Of a stretch of 52,886 nucleotides of DNA, positions 2,735-52,886 are shown piece after piece (positions within the stretch are counted from its first letter, which is position 1; each line of letters opens with the position of its first letter). Both the position numbers and the translations under genes were made by a program. The notes beneath the pieces are model-generated. The model worked only from the letters and a program-made list of their open reading frames with translations, did not search any database and had not been told where the DNA came from. Source of the stretch: Bacteroidota bacterium (GTDB taxonomy: Bacteria > Bacteroidota > Bacteroidia > JABEUT01); contig JAKAOA010000005.1 of NCBI GenBank assembly GCA_021823405.1, forward strand, positions 1 to 52,886, given 5' to 3'.

Positions 2735-3538
2735 ATGATGAAGATAAAAACGGAAAATAACAGCTTCCGGCGCGCATTCGACGGAAAAAACAAATCCGGC
2801 AAGGTTGCTTTTATGCCATTTCTTGTGGCAGGAGACCCTGATTATGCAGGATGTTTAAAAATGCTTAAAACCGTAACAAGGTATGCCGATATGCTGGAGA
2901 TAGGATTCCCATATTCAGACCCGTTGGCAGACGGACCGACCATACAGGCGGCGGACGAGAGATCTCTGAAGGCGGGGATGAACACCGATAAGGTTTTTAA
3001 TCTTATCCGGGACTTGCGTTCATTCTGCAATAAACCGATTACAGCGCTGGTTTATGCTAACCTCGTTTACCGTTACGGATTGGATCCATTCTATAAGAAG
3101 TGCGCGCGAACCGGTATTAATGGTGTTCTTGTTCCCGATGTGCCTATTGAGGAGTCAATCCCTTTTGTTAATGCGGCTAACAGACATGGAGTTTATCCAA
3201 TTTTTATGTTAACGCAGACGACTACCGATTCACGGCTTAAAGAAATTCTGAAATATGCGCGGGGTTACCTATATCTTGTATCGGTATTGGGAGTTACAGG
3301 GAGCAGAAATTCTCTGGGAAACGAGACATTCGAATTTATTGAAAGAATAAAAAAAATCACCACCCTGCCTGTTGCCCTTGGCTTTGGAATTTCGAAAAAA
3401 GAACAGATAGACAAAGCAACTAAAGCAGGTATTAACGGAGTAATTGTCGGCAGCGCAATAATTAAAATTATTGAACTAAACATCAAAAATCCGTGCCTGA
3501 AAGTTGAAAAATTCATAAAAGAATTAGGAGTCGCCTGA
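2735..3538 (+). CDS. trpA: Tryptophan synthase alpha chain
   Basis: Cleaves indole-3-glycerol phosphate to indole and glyceraldehyde-3-phosphate; indole is channelled to TrpB. The 267-residue barrel shows 'EIGFPYSDPLADGPTIQ' near residues 56-72 with the catalytic Glu and Asp, 'LVPDVPIEE' near 131, 'LVSVLGVTGSR' near 182 and 'VALGFGISKKEQI' near 216. Two consecutive ATG codons start the gene; the first is used here. It is the last gene of the operon and faces a lipoprotein gene on the other strand. No clear hairpin terminator is seen in the 39-base gap. Confidence 0.97.
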   Translation: MMKIKTENNSFRRAFDGKNKSGKVAFMPFLVAGDPDYAGCLKMLKTVTRYADMLEIGFPYSDPLADGPTIQAADERSLKAGMNTDKVFNLIRDLRSFCNKPITALVYANLVYRYGLDPFYKKCARTGINGVLVPDVPIEESIPFVNAANRHGVYPIFMLTQTTTDSRLKEILKYARGYLYLVSVLGVTGSRNSLGNETFEFIERIKKITTLPVALGFGISKKEQIDKATKAGINGVIVGSAIIKIIELNIKNPCLKVEKFIKELGVA

Positions 3539-3577
3539 TTAGCGAAGGTCATTTCCTGCCATTCTATTACTTATAGT

Positions 3578-4138
3578 TTAATTTTTTGTCGGAGGCGCTA
3601 CAGGTGTCAGAGTTTTTGCGGAGTTAAACATGGTCTGTGCCTGTTCTTTTGAGAAAGTGTAAACGGTGCCATCCGTTCCCTGCTGAAGGTCGGAGACATA
3701 GTAAGTTGTATTTCCCTTTTTTACCAGACAATAGATATGAAACTCCTCTTTCGCATTGGCAAAAGCGTTGGTATCTTTCTGGGTTGAATAAAACAGGTTG
3801 CTGCTATCGTTAGCCACCCATGTTTTGGGCTTATTCAAATCATCGCCGTTAATGTCGTTCTTCTTCATTCCAACCGATTCCCCGGAAACGTTTATTGTAA
3901 TATAAAAACCCTTACCCACATTAATAAGTATAGAACCGTCGCTGTTTTCAACGATTCCGTAGATCTTTTTAGTGGTATCAGGCACATCAATAGTAGCCGG
4001 CAGGTGCCATTTGGTAAGATCGATACGCACCATGCCCGGGGCAATAGGAACTTCGTTCTCACCGGATTGGCTGTTTTTACATGAATTCATAGCTAATAAC
4101 GCTAATACGAGCGCGCAGAGGGATAGTTTTTTTCTCAT
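3578..4138 (-). CDS. Putative lipoprotein of unknown function
   Basis: A 186-residue protein with a lipoprotein signal peptide: 'MRKKLSLCALVLALLAMNSC' ends in a lipobox-like N-S-C, so it should be lipidated and exported. The mature part is short and hydrophilic, with beta-rich segments such as 'DGSILINVGKGFYITINV' and a C-terminal 'DLQQGTDGTVYTFSKEQAQ'. I recognise no family. On the minus strand upstream, TACATTTG (4163-4170) resembles the Bacteroidota -7 box. It stands alone between the trp operon and the polysaccharide locus. Confidence 0.75.
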   Translation of the reverse strand: MRKKLSLCALVLALLAMNSCKNSQSGENEVPIAPGMVRIDLTKWHLPATIDVPDTTKKIYGIVENSDGSILINVGKGFYITINVSGESVGMKKNDINGDDLNKPKTWVANDSSNLFYSTQKDTNAFANAKEEFHIYCLVKKGNTTYYVSDLQQGTDGTVYTFSKEQAQTMFNSAKTLTPVAPPTKN

Positions 4139-4247
4139 AAAAGGTATATTTTAATAACATGGCAAATGTAATCTTTTCTATTATATCAACCATTTCAATT
4201 GTCATTGATTTTCTCTGAAATAGACCTAATATGTATATTTGCAATAT

Positions 4248-5078
4248 ATGGAATATGAGATTAAGCCGCATGAAAAACTAAACCTTGGGGTAAAGGAGTT
4301 GTTGCATTACCGGGAACTTTTCTATTTTTTTACATGGCGCGATATAAAGGTAAAATATAAACAAACGGTTCTTGGATTCGCCTGGGCTGTGCTCCAGCCA
4401 ATAATCCTGATGATTGTCTTTTCGGAGATAGGACAGGCGTTCAATATACCCAGAGAAGGCGGTTTACCGAGGCCTCTTTTCGCGTATTCCGGGTTGCTGT
4501 TATGGAATATCTTCGCGTCAGGCGTTACCAACGCAGGCAACAGCATGGTAACTAACGCCGCTATCATTAAAAAGATATATTTCCCGAGATTGATAATACC
4601 TGTTTCCGCCGTCTTGAGCGCCCTGTTTGATTTTATAATGGCTTTTATTGTATTTATCGCTATGCTGATTTATTATATCTGGTTAGGCGAAGTTAAATTT
4701 AATCCGTTAAGCTTTATCGCAGCGCTACCGGCAAGTTTACTGATAACATCTATTTCCACCTTCGGCATAGGCGCTTTAATTGCTTCCCTGAATCTTAAGT
4801 ACAGGGATTTCCGGTATATCATACCATTTATGATTTCTGTTCTTCTTTTTGCCACGCCGGTTATCTATCCGATTACTGGAACCCATTTCCACTGGGCTAA
4901 ATATCTGTTCGCCTTGAATCCATTATACAGCGCGATAGAACTTTTCAGGATATCGTTCAGCTCGGGCGGATTGCATATTTACCTTGTATTAATAAGTTTT
5001 TGTTCCTCAATACTATTTTTTGTTACCGGCATAATATATTTCCGGAAAACAGAAATTTACTTCGCCGATTTGGCATAG
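4248..5078 (+). CDS. wzm: ABC-2 type polysaccharide export permease (Wzm-like)
   Basis: Membrane subunit of an ABC exporter that moves lipid-linked O-antigen or a related polysaccharide across the inner membrane. The cytoplasmic N-terminal 'REYLFYFFTW'-like interface helix is present as 'LFYFFTWRDIKVKYKQT', followed by 'LGFAWAVLQPIILMIVF' and about six membrane segments, including 'LIIPVSAVLSALFDFIMAFIV' and 'FMISVLLFATPVIYPI'. The ORF track begins at a TTG at 4239; the ATG at 4248 is preferred. The ATPase gene starts directly after the stop, so the two form an operon. Confidence 0.9.
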   Translation: MEYEIKPHEKLNLGVKELLHYRELFYFFTWRDIKVKYKQTVLGFAWAVLQPIILMIVFSEIGQAFNIPREGGLPRPLFAYSGLLLWNIFASGVTNAGNSMVTNAAIIKKIYFPRLIIPVSAVLSALFDFIMAFIVFIAMLIYYIWLGEVKFNPLSFIAALPASLLITSISTFGIGALIASLNLKYRDFRYIIPFMISVLLFATPVIYPITGTHFHWAKYLFALNPLYSAIELFRISFSSGGLHIYLVLISFCSSILFFVTGIIYFRKTEIYFADLA

Positions 5079-6287
5079 ATGATGAAGCCCATACTTGAAA
5101 TAAAGAATATATCAAAAAAATTCCGCATCAGGCATAATGTGCAGCCGTACTTAAGCTTGCGCGACTCGGTCACCTCATTCTTCAGAAGAGAGAGAAGTAC
5201 GAGCGAGGAATTCTACGCTCTTAATGGCGTGAGTTTTAATGTGGAGGCGGGACAGAGCATTGGAATAATCGGAAAAAACGGCGCAGGCAAATCCACCCTG
5301 CTTAAAATACTTTCTAAAATAACACCTCCTTCATCAGGCAGAATCATCTCTCGCGGTCGCATAGCGAGTTTGCTTGAAGTGGGTACAGGTTTTCACCCGG
5401 AACTTTCGGGACGCGAAAATATCTATCTGAATGGTTCAATTCTTGGAATGAAGCGCAAGGAGATTCAGGCGAAGTTTGATGAAATTGTAGATTTCAGCGG
5501 TACCGAAAAGTTTTTAGACACTCCTTTAAAGCATTACAGCAGCGGCATGCAACTGCGACTTGCTTTTTCTGTGGCAGCATTCCTGGAACCGGAAATTTTA
5601 ATTATAGACGAGGTGCTTGCGGTCGGCGATATGGATTTCCAGCAGAAATGTATTGGCAAGATGGAAGATGCTGCTGAATCGGGCAAAACAATCCTTTTCG
5701 TCAGCCATAATCTTGCGGCGGTGCAAAGTTTATGCGCCAAGGCGATTCTTATTCATGAGGGAACCGTAAAGCAATTCGACGAAACTTCGAAGGTAATCTC
5801 AACCTATGTTACCCATAACAAGACCATAAATAAAATTGATTTATCAAGACGGAAGAACAAAAGAATGTACATTGAGGATTTTAAAATTCAGGGTGGCAAC
5901 TCTAACGACCCGACGCATATATATCCCGGAAGAGAATGTTCATTTTTGATAGACATTCACTCTGAAACGGAAACTGCGAATGTTCATGTGGGAATTGGAA
6001 TTAATGACCGGAATAATGTTAGGTTAATTACCTTATATACGGGCTTCTTTTCGACCAAATTCAAGTTAAAAAAGGGTCTGAATAAGTTGATTTGTAGAGT
6101 GGATAGCTTATCTTTGAAGCCGGATACTTACTCCGTTCAGATTTATGTGGGAAGCGAATTTGAGTCATACGATACGAGCCATGATGAGGTATCAATGGTA
6201 GTTACGCCTATCGATTTTTATTATAAAATTCTTCCGGATTCCTCGCAGGGTTCAATAATTACAAAACATTCATGGGAGCAAAACTAA
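5079..6287 (+). CDS. wzt: ABC polysaccharide exporter ATPase with C-terminal substrate domain (Wzt-like)
   Basis: Energises the adjacent permease. The N-terminal nucleotide-binding domain has Walker A 'GIIGKNGAGKSTLLKIL' near residue 63, the signature 'HYSSGMQLRLAFSVA' near 153 and Walker B 'ILIIDEVLAVGD' near 175. After about residue 245 a beta-rich extension of some 150 residues follows ('HIYPGRECSFLIDI', 'LKPDTYSVQIYVGSEF'). This matches the Wzt C-terminal domain, which in related systems binds the capped end of the glycan. The ATG abuts the permease stop with no gap. Confidence 0.93.
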   Translation: MMKPILEIKNISKKFRIRHNVQPYLSLRDSVTSFFRRERSTSEEFYALNGVSFNVEAGQSIGIIGKNGAGKSTLLKILSKITPPSSGRIISRGRIASLLEVGTGFHPELSGRENIYLNGSILGMKRKEIQAKFDEIVDFSGTEKFLDTPLKHYSSGMQLRLAFSVAAFLEPEILIIDEVLAVGDMDFQQKCIGKMEDAAESGKTILFVSHNLAAVQSLCAKAILIHEGTVKQFDETSKVISTYVTHNKTINKIDLSRRKNKRMYIEDFKIQGGNSNDPTHIYPGRECSFLIDIHSETETANVHVGIGINDRNNVRLITLYTGFFSTKFKLKKGLNKLICRVDSLSLKPDTYSVQIYVGSEFESYDTSHDEVSMVVTPIDFYYKILPDSSQGSIITKHSWEQN

Positions 6288-6310
6288 CATCAATTCGCAA
6301 TAAATAATGT

Positions 6311-7144
6311 ATGGAAAATCAGGGGGCGAAATTTATTGAGCTGCTAAAAAAAGTATTGATTGACTATCATCGGATAGATCTTGAAGAATATAGGCCATTA
6401 AATGGTAATCCTAAGATACTAACCGCAATTGTCAAGCTGTTCAACAGGAGGTATCGTGGAAAAAAAATTGCATTATGCGAGTTAAATGATACGAGTAAAG
6501 AGAAACGTATGCAAGGTCTCGATTGGCCCTATTATGCCGATACGATGATAGGAATGAAACGGCTTGATAATCTTGAATTCTGCGTAAGGGATGTAATAAA
6601 AAATAATGTAGAAGGCGACTTTATAGAATTAGGCGTGTGGCGCGGCGGAGCTACTATTTTAATGCGCGCTCTGCTAAAAGTTATGAATATTACCGATAGA
6701 AGTGTCTGGGTTGCCGACTCATTTGAAGGGCTGCCACGTCCTGATGAAAAAACTTATCCTGTAGACAAAGGCGACCAACATCATACCTACACCGAACTCG
6801 CAATATCATTGGAACAGGTAAAAAATAACTTTGAAAAATATGGGCTACTCGATGAACAGGTAAAATTTTTGAAAGGATGGTTTAAGGACACTTTGCCAAC
6901 TGCTCCTATAAAAAAGCTTGCCGTGTTGCGGCTGGATGGAGACATGTATGGCTCTACAATGGATGGGCTGGTAAACCTGTATCCTAAACTTTCAGTAGGC
7001 GGGTATGTGATAATCGATGACTGGGGAGCTGTTCCGGGTTGTAAACGTGCTGTTCAGGATTTCAGAAATAAACACAACATAAAAGAAGAGATCCGACAAA
7101 TTGATTGGGGAGGTGTATTTTGGAGAAAGGAACATTCATATTAG
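6311..7144 (+). CDS. TylF/MycF-family sugar O-methyltransferase
   Basis: SAM- and metal-dependent methyltransferase of the macrocin O-methyltransferase (TylF) family, likely modifying a sugar of the exported glycan. Motifs: 'DFIELGVWRGGATILM' near residue 103 for SAM binding, 'VWVADSFEGLPRPDE' near 134, 'LRLDGDMYGSTMDGL' near 208 and 'GGYVIIDDWGAVPGC' near 230 with the metal-binding Asp residues. Length 277 is close to the family. It lies 23 bases after the ATPase gene in the same orientation, so it is probably co-transcribed with the exporter. Confidence 0.9.
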   Translation: MENQGAKFIELLKKVLIDYHRIDLEEYRPLNGNPKILTAIVKLFNRRYRGKKIALCELNDTSKEKRMQGLDWPYYADTMIGMKRLDNLEFCVRDVIKNNVEGDFIELGVWRGGATILMRALLKVMNITDRSVWVADSFEGLPRPDEKTYPVDKGDQHHTYTELAISLEQVKNNFEKYGLLDEQVKFLKGWFKDTLPTAPIKKLAVLRLDGDMYGSTMDGLVNLYPKLSVGGYVIIDDWGAVPGCKRAVQDFRNKHNIKEEIRQIDWGGVFWRKEHSY

Positions 7145-44024: not shown

Positions 44025-44152
44025 CCATTCCAAATCAGGAATAATCTGGCAAAATCCATCCTATTTCGTCCTTTTTAAGCCAAATCGCTCCAAATCCGGA
44101 AATGAACCTAATGACCTGTTGTTTATTTGCAGCCCGCAAAAAAATAAACGAC

Positions 44153-45676
44153 ATGAGTAACATCCGGCATATACTTCGCCTTCACACACAAGGCGTAGGT
44201 TTTTTTGAGATTATACGGCAAACCAGCATTTCACGCACTACTTTGAGAAAGCACATTAACGACTTTAAAGGGAGTGGATTAAGCTTTGAAGATATAAACG
44301 AGTTAAGTGATGCCGACTTAGAAGAACTATTTCAGAAGCCGGAAGAAAGACCCGTTGATATAGTGCTGCAAAAGCTCCTTGAACTATTTCCTGCAATGGA
44401 TAGAGAGTTAAAACGAAGAGGGGTGACCAGAATGACACTGTGGCAGGAGTATATCAAAAATTACCCGGATGGCTATGGATATAGCAGGTTTAACCGCTAC
44501 TTCAAGAAATGGAAAGAGCAGGCAAAACCCGTAATGCATAAAGAGCATGTGGCAGGAGATAAGATGTACATAGACTTCGCCGGTCAGAAATTATCCTTTA
44601 TTGACCCGGCTACAGGAACAGTACAGCCCGTTGAGGTTTTTGTGGCTATTCTCGGTGCAAGCCAGCTTACTTATGTGGAAGCTGTGATGACACAAAAGAA
44701 AGAAGACTTTATCCCGGCATGTGAGAACGCTTTGCATTTTTTCGGCGGCGTTCCCGGTGCTATTGTTTGCGATAATTTGCGCGCAGCCGTAAAAAAGGTA
44801 AGCAGGTATGAACCTTCCATAAATGAAACCTTTTTTGATTTTGGCGAACATTACAATACTGCCATATTACCTGCAAGAGTGCGTAAGCCCACTGATAAAG
44901 CTCCGGTAGAAATAGCCATCAGGATAATATACAGCCGTATTTATGCCAAATTAAGAGACCAAACATATAATTCACTCAAAGAATTAAATAAAGCTATTTG
45001 GGATGCTTTGGAAGAGCATAATAATCAAATTATTACAGGCAACGAATATAGCCGCTGGCAACTGTTCAGAGACAGAGAAAAGGCCGCCCTTTTGCCTTTA
45101 CCTTTATTACGCTATGAGTTTAAGAAGCAGGCTTATATTACCGTACCTAAGAACGGCCATATTCGCTTATCAGCCGATAAACATCATTACAGCGTACCTT
45201 ATAACTTCATCGGTAAAAGCATTAAGGTGCTATATTCCAATGAAGATGTCGAAATGTTTTACAATTATGAAAGGATTGCCTTTCACAAGCGGGATAGAAC
45301 CCCATATACATATACTACTGTTAATAAACATCTATTCCCGGCATACCGTTTTACAGCGGAACTGGTATCCGACCGCTTTGTTACGCTCGCCGAAAGTATC
45401 CATCCGGATGTTACGCGGTATATAGGAAAAATTCTTGAAAGCCAGCGCCACAGAGACCAGGCTTACAGAATATGCACAGGTGTTCTTGATTTCGCCAAAA
45501 AGGTAGGTAATGACAGGCTTACTAAAGCTTGCCAGAGAGCTGAAAACTGCGGCATATACAGCTACAGAATTATAAAAAAGATACTGGAACAGGGACTGGA
45601 TATGTGCGATAATGAGGATGAGAAGCTGAAAATGCCTGAACACAACAACATACGTGGCAAAGAATATTATCAATAA
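44153..45676 (+). CDS. istA: IS21-family transposase IstA
   Basis: About 507 residues from the preferred ATG (the track adds 17 residues from 44102). The N-terminal HTH is 'ILRLHTQGVGFFEIIRQTSI'. The DDE core begins 'EHVAGDKMYIDFAGQKLSFI' with the first Asp, 'GGVPGAIVCDNLRAAVKKVS' with the second, and a Glu in 'KAPVEIAIRIIYSRIY'. The C-terminal domain has 'KHHYSVPYNFIGKSIKVLYS'. It moves the element together with IstB. It appears uninterrupted. Confidence 0.95.
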   Translation: MSNIRHILRLHTQGVGFFEIIRQTSISRTTLRKHINDFKGSGLSFEDINELSDADLEELFQKPEERPVDIVLQKLLELFPAMDRELKRRGVTRMTLWQEYIKNYPDGYGYSRFNRYFKKWKEQAKPVMHKEHVAGDKMYIDFAGQKLSFIDPATGTVQPVEVFVAILGASQLTYVEAVMTQKKEDFIPACENALHFFGGVPGAIVCDNLRAAVKKVSRYEPSINETFFDFGEHYNTAILPARVRKPTDKAPVEIAIRIIYSRIYAKLRDQTYNSLKELNKAIWDALEEHNNQIITGNEYSRWQLFRDREKAALLPLPLLRYEFKKQAYITVPKNGHIRLSADKHHYSVPYNFIGKSIKVLYSNEDVEMFYNYERIAFHKRDRTPYTYTTVNKHLFPAYRFTAELVSDRFVTLAESIHPDVTRYIGKILESQRHRDQAYRICTGVLDFAKKVGNDRLTKACQRAENCGIYSYRIIKKILEQGLDMCDNEDEKLKMPEHNNIRGKEYYQ

Positions 45677-45705
45677 TAGTATTAACTCCTTAAAACAAAA
45701 ACAAC

Positions 45706-46443
45706 ATGAATGAATCAACGTTAGAAAAAATGAAAAAGATGAAGCTCTTTGGTATGCACAATGCTTTTAAAACCAGCATTGAATCAGGCAAGACCGAAGA
45801 TTATACATCGGATGAAATGGTTGGCTACCTTATCGGTTCGGAATGGGATGACCGACACAATCGCAGTATAGCCCGACAGCTTAAGAACGCTAAATTCCGG
45901 TATAAAGCATCAATGGAAGAGCTTAATTATGCTACTGACCGAAATCTCGACAAAAACCAAATCATGCGTTTAGGCGAGTGTACGTTTTTAAATAAGCATG
46001 AGAATGTCCTGATTACGGGCAGCACAGGCATAGGCAAAAGTTACATTGCATCGGCTTTAGGTCATCAGGCATGCAGTATGGGATACAGGGTAATGTATCA
46101 TAATACCGCCAAATTGATGGGTAAACTCAAAATTGCGAAGGGAGAAGGCTCTTATGTCAGGGAAATAGCAAAAATAGAACGCCAGAATCTTTTGATACTG
46201 GATGATTTCGGCTTGCAACCATTTGACAGCCAGAGCAGGGCCATACTTATGGAAATAATTGAAGACAGGCATGGCAATGCCTCAACCATTATTACCTCCC
46301 AGGTTCCCGTAAAGGAATGGTATGATATAATTGGTGAGCAAACCGTAGCGGATGCCATAATGGACAGGATAATTCATCAGGCGCACAGGCTTGAAATAAA
46401 AGGCGAGTCCATGCGAAAGAAGATTGCGAAATTGGCAGCATAA
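45706..46443 (+). CDS. istB: IS21-family transposition ATPase IstB
   Basis: AAA+ ATPase of 245 residues that chooses the target and activates IstA. Walker A is 'ITGSTGIGKSYIASAL' near residue 104; Walker B is 'NLLILDDFGLQPFD' near 163; sensor region 'NASTIITSQVPVKEWYDIIG' near 193. 'IMDRIIHQAHRLEIKGESMRK' closes the family pattern. It starts 29 bases after istA. A strong terminator follows 20 bases after its stop. Confidence 0.96.
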   Translation: MNESTLEKMKKMKLFGMHNAFKTSIESGKTEDYTSDEMVGYLIGSEWDDRHNRSIARQLKNAKFRYKASMEELNYATDRNLDKNQIMRLGECTFLNKHENVLITGSTGIGKSYIASALGHQACSMGYRVMYHNTAKLMGKLKIAKGEGSYVREIAKIERQNLLILDDFGLQPFDSQSRAILMEIIEDRHGNASTIITSQVPVKEWYDIIGEQTVADAIMDRIIHQAHRLEIKGESMRKKIAKLAA

Positions 46444-46579: not shown

Positions 46580-48151
46580 ATGGCAAAACAAAAAGAGATA
46601 AAGGAAGAGCCGCTTGAGAAAAAACTATGGAAAGCTGCCGATAAGCTCCGTAAAAACATGGATGCTGCCGAATACAAACATGTAGTATTGGGCTTGATTT
46701 TTTTAAAATACATATCGGATGCCTTTGAAGAACTGTACCAAAAGCTGGTATTACTGAAAAAAGGTGGAGCCGACCCCGAAGATAAAAATGAGTATGTAGC
46801 TGAAAAAGTGTTTTATGTGCCGCCTTCTGCAAGGTGGCAATGGATACAGGGCAGGGCTAAGTTGCCTACCATTGGCAAGGATATTGACGAGGCTATGGAT
46901 ACCATTGAAAAGGATAATCCCTCGTTACGTGGCGTATTACCGAAAGTATATGCACAGGAAAAACTGGATAAAGGCAGCCTCGGCGGGCTTATTGACTTAA
47001 TAAGCACTGCCGTGCTGGGGACTAAAGAGGCTCAAAGTAAGGATATATTGGGCAAGGTTTACGAATATTTTTTAGGCGAGTTTGCACTGGCAGAAGGTAA
47101 AAAGGGAGGCCAGTTCTATACCCCTGCAAGCGTGGTAAAATTATTGGTAGAAATGCTTGAGCCATATGAAGGCAGGGTGTTTGACCCATGTTGTGGTAGC
47201 GGCGGTATGTTTGTGCAAAGTGAAAAGTTTATCAAAGTGCACCAAGACCATTATAAAAAGAACAACGGTAAAAAACTATCCCTTAACCCTGCCGACCATA
47301 TCTCTATTTACGGGCAGGAAAGCAACCAAACTACATGGCGGCTGGCTAAAATGAACCTTGCCATACGGGGTATTGACAGCAGCAATGTTAAATGGAACAA
47401 CGAGGGCAGCTTTTTGAATGATGCTCATAAGGACTTAAAAGCAGATTACATACTTGCCAATCCTCCGTTTAATGACAGCGACTGGAGCGGTGAACTATTA
47501 CAGAAGGATGCTCGCTGGCAATATGGTGTACCGCCTGCCGGAAATGCTAACTATGCCTGGATACAGCACTTTCTGTACCATTTAGCCCCGAATGGGCAGG
47601 CTGGTTTTGTTTTATCCAAAGGCTCACTTACCACTAATACTACAGGAGAGGGTGAAATACGCAAGGCTTTGGTGGAAAATGATTTGATAGACTGCATTGT
47701 AAACCTGCCCACCAAACTATTTTTAAATACACAGATACCCGCCTGTTTGTGGTTTTTAAAACGGAATAAAAAGGAACGTAAGGGCGAAATATTGTTTATC
47801 GATGCCCGTAATCTGGGGTATTTAGTAAACCGCCGCAACCGTAATTTAAGCAATGAGGATATTGCACAGGTTGCCAATACATACCATTACTGGCGTACAA
47901 AAAGCAAGGATTATGTTGATGTGGCTGGCTTTTGCAAAAGCGTAACACTTGACGAGGTAAAAACTCTGAATTATGTTGTTACACCTGGCAGGTATGTTGG
48001 TTTGCCTGATGATGAGGATGATTTTAATTTTACTGAACGTTTTACAAGCTTAAAGGCAGAATTGGAAAAGCAAATGGCTGAAGAGGCTGAATTGAATAAA
48101 CGCATAGTGCAAAATCTAAAAAAAATTCAGTATGAGCCTATTGCTAAGTAA
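46580..48151 (+). CDS. hsdM: Type I restriction-modification methyltransferase subunit
   Basis: A 523-residue N6-adenine methyltransferase subunit. The HsdM N-terminal domain covers about 10-150 ('[20 protein letters not shown]'). The catalytic domain has '[17 protein letters not shown]' near 176, SAM motif '[18 protein letters not shown]' near 198 and catalytic '[15 protein letters not shown]' near 287. It acts with HsdS for sequence recognition. It looks intact. It is followed by a 226-base gap with two hairpins, an Abi gene and the broken hsdS. Confidence 0.96.
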
Positions 48152-48160
48152 AGAAAAACA

Positions 48161-48187
48161 AATTGTCGTATCACTGTCACGACAATT
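48161..48187. terminator. Hairpin after hsdM
   Basis: AATTGTCGT and ACGACAATT pair over nine bases around a nine-base loop, ten bases after the hsdM stop, followed by an A-rich stretch instead of T. It could limit read-through to the Abi gene or protect the hsdM transcript. Confidence 0.4.
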
Positions 48188-48276: not shown

Positions 48277-48310
48277 CCCGGAAGCTTGAATTTCTTCAGG
48301 GGCTTCCGGG
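48277..48310 (-). terminator. Terminator-like hairpin pointing left
   Basis: CCCGGAAGC and GCTTCCGGG pair over nine bases. On the minus strand the stem is followed by TTTTTGTTTTTA, a good U tract, yet no minus-strand gene lies upstream. On the plus strand no T run follows. Confidence 0.55.
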
Positions 48311-48377: not shown

Positions 48378-49058
48378 ATGATTTTTAGTGATTTTCAGCA
48401 GATAATGTCTTCGGCAAGGATGAGCAGGTACCTCAATGCTTGCGGAGGGAATACCCGGAAAGCAATGACATTATATCGTCTGAACCTGAAGTTATCACAG
48501 GAGCTGTTTACCATAGTTAGTTGCCTTGAAATTGCATTACGGAATGCTATTGATAAGCATTATACAGTGCTTAAAGGGAATGATTGGTTAAGGGATGCTG
48601 CGAGGCCCGGAGGTATGTTTAGTAATAGACAATGTGGTAAAACCCCATATATTATTGCTGCCGGAGAAAGGAAATTGACTATATATTCTCATTCAAAATT
48701 GATTACCGAGATGGATTTCGGTTTTTGGAGGTATGTGTTCGCAAGGCATCAGTTTCACGCTGGAGGACAATCGTTACTCGCAATTTTTCCTTCAAAACCA
48801 ATAAGTACCCCAACTGTAAATTATAATAACACATACGTATTTGATGAATTGGAGAAAATAAATAATATGCGAAATAGGCTGGCTCACCACGAACCAGTAT
48901 GTTTTTTGATTAATAATCATACAAAAGATACAACCTATGCAAGGCAACACTATGCACTAATGCTACAGTTTTTTCAATGGATGAATATTGATGAGGCTGC
49001 CCTGCTTTACGGAATAGACCACATAAATGAAATTTGTAACAGAATTGATGCTTTGTAA
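48378..49058 (+). CDS. Abi_2-like abortive-infection protein with HEPN motif
   Basis: A 226-residue protein of the AbiD/AbiF (Abi_2) type. The first part has 'QIMSSARMSRYLNACGGNTR' and 'LFTIVSCLEIALRNAIDKHY', the middle 'EMDFGFWRYVFARHQFHAGG', and near residue 165 'KINNMRNRLAHHEPV', the R-N-x-x-x-H HEPN ribonuclease motif. HEPN proteins of this kind cleave RNA in some defence systems; for this one it is inferred. It sits between hsdM and hsdS in the same direction; hsdS starts two bases after its stop, so they are co-transcribed. Confidence 0.85.
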   Translation: MIFSDFQQIMSSARMSRYLNACGGNTRKAMTLYRLNLKLSQELFTIVSCLEIALRNAIDKHYTVLKGNDWLRDAARPGGMFSNRQCGKTPYIIAAGERKLTIYSHSKLITEMDFGFWRYVFARHQFHAGGQSLLAIFPSKPISTPTVNYNNTYVFDELEKINNMRNRLAHHEPVCFLINNHTKDTTYARQHYALMLQFFQWMNIDEAALLYGIDHINEICNRIDAL

Positions 49059-49059
49059 A

Positions 49060-50210
49060 ATGAGCCAATGGAAGGAATATAAATTAGGGGATTTAACAGA
49101 ACTTGTAACTAAAGGAACTACGCCAACAACAGTAGGTGGTAAGTTTATTGAAAAGGGTATTAATTTTATTAAGTCTGAGGCTGTAGGTTACGATGGACGA
49201 ATTGATAAATCTACTTTTGTTTTTATTGATGATGCTACACATGCAAGGCTTAGACGTTCCCAATTGGAAAAGGACGATATTCTATTTTCAATGGCAGGCA
49301 TTTTTCTTGGGAAGAATGCACTTGTTACGGAAGATATGCTTCCAGCAAATACTAATCAGGCACTTGCAATTATAAGGTTAAATAAACAAATATCACTCCC
49401 GAAGTACGTTCACTACTACTTGCGCCAAAAGAGCATAATTGATTTAGTGAATAATATGTCAGGGCAATCTGCTCAGCCTAACATCAATTTTGAGGAGATT
49501 AAAAGCATTGCAATTTCACTCCCTTCAATCCCTGAACAAACCGCCATTGCCGAAGTATTAAGAAGCCTTGATGATAAAATAGATTTACTCCACCGCCAAA
49601 ATAAAACATTGGAAGCATTGGCAGAAACGCTGTTTAGGCAGTGGTTTGTGGAGGGAAATGGCAATGAAAGAAAAGAAAAGATAGGAAGCGTTATTGAATT
49701 TGCAAAAGGAAGAAAACCTAATGAGGTTTTTGAAAATTATTTTGAGGGGTTCCTCAACTCTTAATTGAAAACTTTGATAATGGGAGAGCTCTTTATACAA
49801 GACCAGATGGTATGCTTGTAGCAAAAGAAAAAGATTTATTAATGGTTATGGATGGCGCAAGTTCAGGCAGGACAGAAATCGGATACACAGGTGCTGTTGG
49901 CTCAACTATTGGGTTGCTTAAACCCCTAAATAGCTTTAATTACCCCCTGTTTCTGTATCAGTTTCTTAAAACGAATGAAAACTATATAAAAGATAATACA
50001 ACAGGTTCAGCAATTCCGCATGCAGACAAAGCATTAATACTTGATTTGGAATTTTACTTTTCAAATGAATTACAAATACAAGAATTTGAAATACTTATGC
50101 AAGGATGGTTTGATAAAAAACAATTAAACAATATCCAAATCCGCACCCTAACGCAACTGCGCGATACTTTGTTGCCTAAGCTGATGAGCGGCAAAGTGAG
50201 GGTAAATTAA
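49060..50210 (+). pseudogene. hsdS: Type I specificity subunit, frameshifted
   Basis: Two ORFs of the track together give one HsdS of about 383 residues. TRD1 starts 'SQWKEYKLGDLTELVTKGTT'; the central conserved helix is 'LDDKIDLLHRQNKTLEALAE'. TRD2 begins in frame 1 and is cut at 'YFEGFLNS'; in frame 0 it continues 'PQLLIENFDNGRALYTRPDG' and ends 'TLLPKLMSGKVRV'. The break is a one-base loss near 49750-49754 (GGGGTTCCTC; an extra C would restore it). As written, a truncated HsdS with only TRD1 and the spacer helix is made. Start at 49060 is two bases after the Abi stop. Confidence 0.88.
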
Positions 50211-50220
50211 AAGAATATAT

Positions 50221-51558
50221 ATGGAATTTTTCGGCATAGATTGGAATGAAAAGCACATTCTGAAAACAAACACAAAACTTGTTTGCACTTCTGATATTGG
50301 AAAAATCAATGCAGAAGAATTGAAAAAAGAGGTTGAACCTTGGCTCTCAGCTATTTTTCAAAGTGAACATTTGTCATTGCTCATTGGGACAGGTTTAACA
50401 AGTGCAGTTTCTTTTACATCTGGCGTAATCCCTCAAGAAATGTCACGGCTTGCCCTTACTGACGGACTTAGAGATAAGATTAAGAACAAGGCGGATGCAA
50501 CAGCAAAAAAAATGAATCGTGGCGCGGCAAATATTGAAGATGATATTCGTATTGCATTAGAACTGATTAATGGTTTAAAAATCCTTGATGATGAACGCCA
50601 CACAGGTTTAGAAGCAGAACTCAATACAGAACTTCTTGCTTTTATACAGGCAATTCTTAAAACGGAGAGAGATTTTATGGCTAAATTGAAAGCAGATGAT
50701 GAAAAAGGAATCTTGGCTTTTAAGTTGCTTAATAGTTTTATTCTAAGTTTTACAAGCAGAGCAGCATCAAGAGAACGACTTAATCTGTTTACAACCAATT
50801 ATGACAGATTTATTGAATTGGCTTGTGATGAAACTGGCGTATTGCTTTTGGATAGGTTTAAAGGAAAGATTCAGCCAATATTCCGAAATACACGTCTTGA
50901 ATTAGATTATCATTATAATCCGCCTGGTATAAGAGGTGAACCCCGATATGTTGAAGGTGTTGCAAGAATTACAAAACTTCACGGGTCAATTGACTGGAAA
51001 TTTACAGTAGACAAAATTATCAGGTCACTTTTACCCTTTGGTGCAGAAGATAACCATCCTGAAATACCAAAAAATGTTACAGAGCAGGTAGTTATTTATC
51101 CTAATTCTTCTAAAGATATTGAAACGGCATTTTATCCATACGCTGAATTATTCCGTGATTTCTCGTCATCAATTTGCCAGCCAAATTCGGTAATCATTAC
51201 TTATGGTTACGGCTTTGGTGATAGTCACATTAACAGGGTTATTGAGGACATGCTCACCATACCGTCAACTCATTTGGTTGTGATAGCTTGGGATAGAAAT
51301 TATGCAAAAGAAGGAGAAGCTGTTAACTTTGGTGCATCAAGAGATCGCATTGTATATTTTTTGGAAGATAAAAATTCTGCACAATGCACATTATTGGTAG
51401 GCGAACATTTTGCTGACCTGAAAAACCTTGTTGAGTTTTATTTACCCAAGTCGGCTATTGACCGCTTGACAGTTAAAATGCAAAAACTGAAAGATAACAG
51501 AGGCGACCGGAACAAGGGTGATGAAGATTCAGGAAACGAAAATAAAGGTGAGAAATGA
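50221..51558 (+). CDS. SIR2-domain defence protein
   Basis: A 445-residue SIR2-like protein. 'SLLIGTGLTSAV' near residue 52 corresponds to the NAD-binding Gly-rich loop; 'LFTTNYDRFIELA' near 189 holds the conserved Asn193; 'ITKLHGSIDW' near 250 holds the catalytic-type His254; 'VIITYGYGFGDSHINRV' near 324 is the usual SIR2_2 close. A helical insert covers about 75-185 and a charged tail about 425-445. In known systems this pairs with HerA and depletes NAD upon phage attack. Its TGA overlaps the herA ATG. It lies ten bases after hsdS. Confidence 0.92.
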   Translation: MEFFGIDWNEKHILKTNTKLVCTSDIGKINAEELKKEVEPWLSAIFQSEHLSLLIGTGLTSAVSFTSGVIPQEMSRLALTDGLRDKIKNKADATAKKMNRGAANIEDDIRIALELINGLKILDDERHTGLEAELNTELLAFIQAILKTERDFMAKLKADDEKGILAFKLLNSFILSFTSRAASRERLNLFTTNYDRFIELACDETGVLLLDRFKGKIQPIFRNTRLELDYHYNPPGIRGEPRYVEGVARITKLHGSIDWKFTVDKIIRSLLPFGAEDNHPEIPKNVTEQVVIYPNSSKDIETAFYPYAELFRDFSSSICQPNSVIITYGYGFGDSHINRVIEDMLTIPSTHLVVIAWDRNYAKEGEAVNFGASRDRIVYFLEDKNSAQCTLLVGEHFADLKNLVEFYLPKSAIDRLTVKMQKLKDNRGDRNKGDEDSGNENKGEK

Positions 51559-52886
51559 GCAATATTAACCAATACGATTATGATCATTTAAGGAATCTGA
51601 CAATCGGAACGGTTGATTATGTTTCACCGAATGAAATAAAAGTGATGCTTGATATAACAGCACCGCAAAACACTGCTTTGAATACGGGCACTCCTTCTCT
51701 TTTTCCAAGAATTAATGGTTTTGTTTTGATTCCCAATGAAGTTGGTGCATTAGTTGGCCTAATCAGTTGGATTGGCGTTGAGCATAGCCAATACCCCAAA
51801 CGAAAGGGCTACAAAGATTTTGATTTAATTGATTTGCCTTTCCCATTACGAAAAATGTCCATTACGCCAATGGGAACATTAAAGCAGGAAGGTAAAATTG
51901 AAGATAAGACCTACAAATTAGAGAGAGGCGTATACAGTTTTCCTTCAATTGGTGATACAGTTATCCTGCCAACAGATATTCAGCTAAAATCAATCGTTGA
52001 AAACAAGGAGGCAAATTCGGTTGTAAAAATTGGTGTCGCTCCTATTGCCGGAAATGCAGAAGTAAAAGTCAATCCCGACAAGCTTTTTGGCAGACACGTT
52101 GCAATACTTGGGAATACTGGAAGTGGTAAATCATGTAGCGTTGCAGGTGTAATTAGGTGGTCGCTTGAAGCAGCATCAAAAAGTCTACCCGAAGGACAAA
52201 AGTTAAACAATCGCTTTATCATTCTTGACCCGAATGGAGAATATACAAATGCCTTTAATGGCCTGAACTCCGATATAAAAAAATTCAAGGTTGAATTAAC
52301 GGAAGTGGAAAAAGCAACTTTCAAGGAATTGAAAGTTCCTGCATGGTTGTGGAACAGCTATGAATGGAGTTCATTTTCTAATGCAAGTGGAAGAACTCAA
52401 AGACCAATATTAAGGCGGGCATTAAGAGAACTACGTTCTGGTGAAACAGATGGTATTTCAGATTTTCAAACAAGAGCAAGAAGTCATTTTTCGAGTTGCT
52501 ACGCAACCTTGCGAGTTGATTTATCAGTAAGTTCAAATTACAAGGAAAGTGCAACCGCATTTGGAAACAAGCTACTGAGTATTATTGAAGATTGCGATTT
52601 TTTTGAGAATCGCTGTGATATAGATAAATTAAAACCAAAATTTAGGGAACTCTCCATGAGTGTCAAAGCCGTTGCAGATTCACGATACAAATCATTTACT
52701 GATAAGGCGACAGGAAAATTAGTTGAATACTATGCAGCATTTTCCCGTAAAGATGTGGAATCTTGTATTGAAGCAATAAAAGCTTTAGTTGGAAATTTTG
52801 GAGGTTTAAATATTTCCATGGACCCCAATGAGGATACTCCTATACCGTTTAATGTAACTGCAATTCCTGACTACATTAGATCGGAA
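51555..52886 (+). CDS. herA: HerA-like ATPase of a SIR2-HerA system, 3' end outside window
   Basis: Absent from the ORF track because the frame stays open to the edge (444 codons seen). It starts at the ATG overlapping the SIR2 stop (ATGA). The N-terminal part, 'LTIGTVDYVSPNEIKVMLDI' on, fits a HAS-barrel domain. The motor domain begins 'GRHVAILGNTGSGKSCSVAG' with Walker A at residues 186-193, and 'RFIILDPNGEYTNAF' near 221 is the D-P-x-G-E-Y motif of HerA/DUF87 proteins. The Walker B acidic pair and sensor parts lie beyond the edge. It should form a hexamer that works with SIR2. Confidence 0.93.
   Translation, partial: MSNINQYDYDHLRNLTIGTVDYVSPNEIKVMLDITAPQNTALNTGTPSLFPRINGFVLIPNEVGALVGLISWIGVEHSQYPKRKGYKDFDLIDLPFPLRKMSITPMGTLKQEGKIEDKTYKLERGVYSFPSIGDTVILPTDIQLKSIVENKEANSVVKIGVAPIAGNAEVKVNPDKLFGRHVAILGNTGSGKSCSVAGVIRWSLEAASKSLPEGQKLNNRFIILDPNGEYTNAFNGLNSDIKKFKVELTEVEKATFKELKVPAWLWNSYEWSSFSNASGRTQRPILRRALRELRSGETDGISDFQTRARSHFSSCYATLRVDLSVSSNYKESATAFGNKLLSIIEDCDFFENRCDIDKLKPKFRELSMSVKAVADSRYKSFTDKATGKLVEYYAAFSRKDVESCIEAIKALVGNFGGLNISMDPNEDTPIPFNVTAIPDYIRSE

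Follow-up and report, generated by a model that had tools for sequence, protein, structure and literature searches.

The question raised by this locus is why a SIR2-HerA pair stands directly behind the hsdS gene of a type I restriction system, at the place where hsdR would be expected, and whether this position says something about how the pair works. The window (the whole stretch of 52,886 nucleotides analysed here) is the complete contig C149 of a genome whose closest named relatives are Bacteroidetes metagenome bins, and the features that bear on the question are the following:

46580-48151, + strand: hsdM, type I methyltransferase, 523 aa (Pfam N6_Mtase 1.1e-109, HsdM_N)
48277-48310, + strand: strong hairpin between hsdM and abi that may mark a transcript boundary (-21.7 kcal/mol, z -5.2)
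48378-49058, + strand: abi, Abi_2 family, AbiD/PD-T4-5-like (Pfam Abi_2 2.2e-07; PADLOC PD-T4-5 4.9e-13)
49060-49764 (reading frame 49027-49764), + strand: first part of hsdS, TRD1 and central region (Methylase_S 2.8e-19; PDLC03154 1-222 of 406)
49812-50210, + strand: second part of hsdS in another frame, rest of TRD2 and distal conserved region (PDLC03154 296-396 of 406)
50221-51558, + strand: sir2, SIR2_2-family NADase-type effector, 445 aa (PADLOC PDLC04079, Pfam PF13289, PDB 8j4u)
50797-50799, + strand: catalytic Asn193 codon (TTNYD), invariant in 41/41 SIR2 proteins
50980-50982, + strand: catalytic His254 codon (KLHGS), invariant in 41/41 SIR2 proteins
51555-52877, + strand: herA, first ~441 of ~700 codons (PDLC04098), with its C-terminal tail on contig C83 (L026)
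52110-52133, + strand: HerA Walker A (GNTGSGKS), from sequence and alignment
52227-52244, + strand: HerA DPNGEY motif, from sequence, invariant in the 7 HerA aligned
52878-52886, + strand: AGATCGGAA, Illumina adapter remnant, not biological (homology stops at 52877; the 9-mer recurs at other contig ends)

The identification of the pair made in an earlier, sequence-only reading of this DNA holds in each of its parts. The PADLOC SIR2 model PDLC04079 matches the sir2 product at 7e-168 and Pfam SIR2_2 (PF13289) matches it above cut-off, the closest solved chains are the SIR2 of 8j4u/8su9 (1.8e-22 for the 8j4u SIR2), and the residues that had been singled out, Asn193 and His254, are where they were said to be and do not vary across an alignment of 41 SIR2 proteins. 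The same is true of the claimed HerA-like ATPase, for which the PADLOC model PDLC04098 gives 1.4e-144 (profile 6-425 of 686), Pfam DUF87 is above cut-off, the closest solved chains in the PDB are HerA proteins of defence complexes, and both the Walker A and the DPNGEY motif are present. The two genes are adjacent and co-directional, their predicted ATGA overlap lies at 51555-51558, and the ATG of sir2 follows the end of the hsdS reading (50210) by 10 nt, as had also been noticed. AlphaFold monomer models of SIR2 and HerA reached a pLDDT of only 37 and 40, since the alignments behind them (6 and 7 rows) were too shallow.

The explanation that we favour, with a probability of roughly 0.86, is that sir2-herA is an anti-phage module of the SIR2-HerA (Gao_19/Nezha) kind, which occupies as cargo the slot that separates hsdS from hsdR in a type I RM operon. 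An anti-phage function is what we infer from the characterised SIR2-HerA/Nezha/GAO_19 systems (Gao 2020; Tang 2023; Shen 2023; PMC11559045), with which the window has in common an adjacent sir2 and herA in one operon, the catalytic Asn/His, the HerA Walker A and the HMM families; it differs from them in that its lineage (PDLC04079/PDLC04098) is far from the solved complexes and is embedded in a type I operon. The assembly of SIR2-HerA and the gating of its NADase have been described (PMC12198126), and in V. cholerae Nezha the SIR2 residues N168/H227 as well as herA are required for defence (PMC11559045). By analogy, SIR2 would form a dodecamer with a HerA hexamer seated on it, an infection cue relayed by HerA would open the SIR2 pocket, NAD+ would be hydrolysed through Asn193/His254, and the resulting drop in NAD+ would halt phage replication with the infected cell being sacrificed. 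The NAD-depletion reading proposed at the outset thus agrees with what is known of relatives. The pair would probably be self-sufficient, though on one transcript with hsdS and the genes that follow, and type I restriction would act as a separate layer.

Whether the pair really interrupts a type I operon depends on where hsdR is. A search of the same genome returned a single strong HsdR match, encoded on contig C83 of 4.9 kb (a second match, on C96, is weak and under the family cut-off), and this HsdR is complete at 1078 aa with all expected domains. The minus strand of C83 opens with ...DDWQNLNNEKEPI-stop, which is the C-terminal tail of the window's HerA lineage, remains in frame to its stop (DDWQNLN...stop) and has its counterparts in the HerA tails SDDWQSLNKEEEPKEEE and ADDWQNLNQKEVEE of relatives. 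About 30 nt after this tail a rhuM gene starts (Pfam RhuM 1.3e-113, PADLOC PDC-S05), and hsdR overlaps rhuM by GTGA. The window's hsdM is the sole clear type I HsdM of the genome (the sole strong N6_Mtase match in the own-genome search). Because hsdM and hsdR are each present once in the genome, we infer with good support the operon order hsdM-abi-hsdS-sir2-herA-(gap ~0.7 kb)-rhuM-hsdR, including the join of C149 to C83, which is suggested by the short HerA tail together with gene logic. Since hsdR then sits beyond herA and rhuM, sir2-herA reads as an insert between hsdS and hsdR. Its placement in a type I locus, as first proposed, is therefore borne out by hsdM and hsdS in the window and hsdR on C83, three subunit genes that the join would bring into one locus with defence genes lodged between them. 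The accompanying remark that the pair takes the place where hsdR would be expected is right in that it follows hsdS directly, but hsdR itself is present further downstream. The rest of herA and hsdR, which were to be looked for past the contig end, were recovered only in part: the HerA tail and hsdR are on C83, but the HerA middle (~240 residues, including Walker B) is in no contig of this genome. Walker B is present in the HerA of close relatives (L020: VIVMEEAH).

With abi between hsdM and hsdS, this operon has at least three cargo units (abi, sir2-herA and rhuM). The IS21-family genes istA/istB (44102-46443) are directly upstream of hsdM, at a distance of about 137 nt, and may be connected with mobility of this locus.

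The hsdS gene itself appears broken, which the sequence-only reading had not noticed. Both of its parts align to a single full-length HsdS of relatives, the second part to their C-termini, and the frame changes at 49740-49815, at the start of the second target recognition domain, so that the window lacks the intact two-TRD HsdS of those relatives. The frame change is either a real break or a sequencing error; with a broken hsdS, type I restriction may be impaired at this locus. As for transcription, the shared transcript that the sequence-only reading had suggested is likely for hsdS and sir2, as the 10 nt gap leaves no room for a terminator, and less certain at the hsdM end, where the strong hairpin between hsdM and abi means that transcription of hsdM may be separate from that of the genes behind it. 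None of 200 shuffles gave a hairpin as good as the one at 48277-48310, and no T-run follows it on the + strand; the gap of 226 nt between hsdM and abi also holds a further stable hairpin, at 48161-48187 (z -3.3). With regard to a promoter and terminator isolating the pair, the possibility raised beforehand, promoter and terminator scans showed no excess over shuffles and a Bacteroidota-type promoter pattern gave matches at chance level only.

To place the arrangement among its relatives, HsdR relatives were collected from 31 other genomes of the same class, 29 loci were fetched and annotated, and the interval was scored in the 25 loci with hsdS and hsdR recognised on one contig. It is filled in 18 of these and empty in the remaining seven (L063, L072, L075, L077, L078, L080, L087). 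The cargo includes AAA_13/PDC-S06 (L062, L085), Mrr with DUF6119 (L067), Abi_C with DUF900 and RhuM (L068), Fic (L079), AAA_15 (L076), GmrSD (L082), DUF3644 (L081), DUF3800 with a zeta toxin (L061), and in L070 a SIR2-HerA of another lineage (PDLC04080/PDLC04097) that hsdR follows. The RhuM of L068 shares 53% identity with the C83 protein and likewise precedes hsdR. A further locus, L118, reads hsdM-hsdS-(11 nt)-SIR2-(ATGA overlap)-HerA-(4 nt)-hsdR with a SIR2 24% identical to the window's, so that two further SIR2-HerA lineages (L070 and L118, 21-24% identical) fill the slot with the window's layout. A pattern scan of viral contigs found no relative.

In related type I loci the hsdS-hsdR interval is thus a general cargo slot for many defence families. 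What seemed an odd placement of sir2-herA is a documented rule for this type I family, in which the cargo of the interval is interchangeable, and distinct SIR2-HerA lineages occupy it at three loci with nearly equal spacing. The earlier description of the placement as unusual finds no support, given the general use of the slot, the SIR2-HerA pairs in L070 and L118, and the control comparison given below. Embedding of defence genes, and the siting of SIR2/HerA beside R/M systems, are already published, and the window is a clear case of this described habit. In EPEC, the two-gene defence module DarTG2 occupies exactly this hsdS-hsdR interval in a type I operon (PMC12255303); the differences are the cargo and its regulation by RptR. 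Streptococcus thermophilus CR3 carries phage-protective SIR2/HerA between or downstream of R/M systems (PMC11514479), likewise pairs placed by R/M systems, but in a Firmicute and beside R/M systems in an island, not shown between hsdS and hsdR of one operon. The "guilt-by-embedding" approach underlies the PDC families (PMC12988326), and Payne et al. (2024 preprint, doi 10.1101/2024.01.29.577857), as cited in PMC12255303 and PMC12988326, deals with defence genes nested in RM operons; the window's pair appears similarly nested, and the rhuM of C83 is itself a PDC-S05 candidate.

A further reading, which we hold only tentatively and consider improbable on balance, is that SIR2-HerA pairs move as cassettes with gene-precise ends between the slots of type I and type III RM operons, reflecting either coupling to RM as a guard or a dedicated exchange route. 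It draws on the fact that the window's lineage, which here comes after hsdS, stands elsewhere behind a type III mod: in L020 and L021 its relatives (proteins 91% and 87% identical) stand after a type III-like XRE-Res-Mod operon, with DNA homology to the window beginning some 16 bases ahead of the start codon of sir2, and a more distant copy in L025 likewise follows a type III-like operon. It draws further on near-identical flanks that enclose two distant SIR2-HerA lineages, since L040 has the same type III operon as L020 (Res 98% identical) with a different pair (SIR2 18% identical), and the flanks of L020 (4572-13801) and L040 (3633-12335) are 88-97% DNA-identical on both sides, the switch lying within the span from the stop codon of mod to that of herA.

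The L020/L040 comparison has the appearance of a natural cassette swap at gene boundaries, with a ~365-bp conserved stretch after herA. Rfam gave nothing in L020, L040 or L026, and widening the survey of type III slots added one more genome only, which was already in the locus set. The type I slot offers a similar pair of loci in L118 and L168, which are sister systems (HsdM 76%, HsdR 78% identical); where L118 carries SIR2-HerA, L168 has an OLD-family nuclease and a GmrSD_N protein (2822-6461). The L168 pair was considered as Gabija and rejected, its partner being GmrSD_N and not GajB. Together, the window with C83, L118, L168, L070, L020 and L040 form a ready set for testing cargo swap and dependence on the RM host.

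A more specific proposal is that SIR2-HerA is functionally linked to the RM operon and is set off by phage inhibition of restriction, in the manner of PrrC with EcoprrI. The tight embedding of the pair between hsdS and hsdR speaks for such a guard, as do the three SIR2-HerA lineages in the hsdS-hsdR slot, the several lineages found after type III RM genes (L020/L021/L025, L040, L122, L038) and the precedent of PrrC and PARIS (PMC12707154). PrrC, in the type IC system EcoprrI, is likewise a suicide effector lodged within a type I locus, but it is a tRNA nuclease held silent by the RM enzyme, a coupling that would be hypothetical for SIR2-HerA. Against the proposal stands a survey of SIR2_2 proteins in 395 genomes of the class, in which 23 SIR2-HerA pairs were recognised: six (26%) are in a co-directional run with RM genes, and for 16 no RM gene was detected at a distance of up to 9 kb. 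The control set, OLD/GajA TOPRIM proteins from an equally large sample of the class (395 genomes), gave 9/40 loci (23%) in RM operons, RM genes being recognised in both sets by models from the surveyed loci, so that remote RM types may be missed in either. With 6/23 against 9/40, SIR2-HerA has no special attraction to RM operons and a special SIR2-HerA/RM link is rejected; defence genes in general tend to ride in RM operons. In addition, the V. cholerae relatives defend without RM neighbours, SIR2-herA protecting with all other island genes deleted (PMC11559045). We consider the guard unlikely and favour an autonomous module, because the V. cholerae pair works alone and most surveyed pairs have no RM gene nearby.

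It might also be supposed that sir2-herA is a degraded, non-functional passenger with a truncated herA, since herA runs into the contig end, the missing part of it is in no contig of the assembly, and the neighbouring hsdS is broken. The end of herA, however, coincides with the last nine bases of the contig, AGATCGGAA, which we take to be the first bases of the usual Illumina adapter. Immediately before them, at 52877, the DNA homology to the nearest relatives ends, these being the intact copies in L020/L021 (about 84% identity), and the reverse complement of the nine bases is found at bases 1-9 of C10, C64, C114, C120, C158 and C177. Since these bases are adapter, the cut in herA is an assembly artefact and not biology. 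With the expected HerA C-terminal tail in frame on C83 and the motifs conserved, we regard degradation as quite improbable. That the pair replaces hsdR, leaving hsdM-hsdS for modification only and the killing to SIR2-HerA, would fit its position directly after hsdS in a window without hsdR, but, provided that C83 does belong at this locus, the idea is rejected as having hardly any chance of being right, given the genome's only HsdR behind the HerA tail and rhuM on C83 and the hsdR that follows SIR2-HerA in both L070 and L118.

Adapter remnants at contig ends of this genome should be trimmed before genes are called there, and the end of C83 that faces herA may hold one of 5 bases. Several other SIR2-HerA neighbourhoods were seen in passing. 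In L057 (8971-17435) and L060 (8902-17343), from Rhizobium and Methylocella plasmids, the pair is followed by SbcD- and SbcC-like genes, possibly a four-gene variant. In L028 (6466-9525) SIR2-HerA is directly preceded, at 68 nt, by a TrwB/TraG-like coupling ATPase of 1019 aa, and in L090 its place is taken by another 1019-aa protein, unrelated by BLAST. Finally, in L037 (10072-13782), from a genome of the same genus, the SIR2 gene is followed by a HerA of 1236 aa, about twice the usual length and possibly a fusion.
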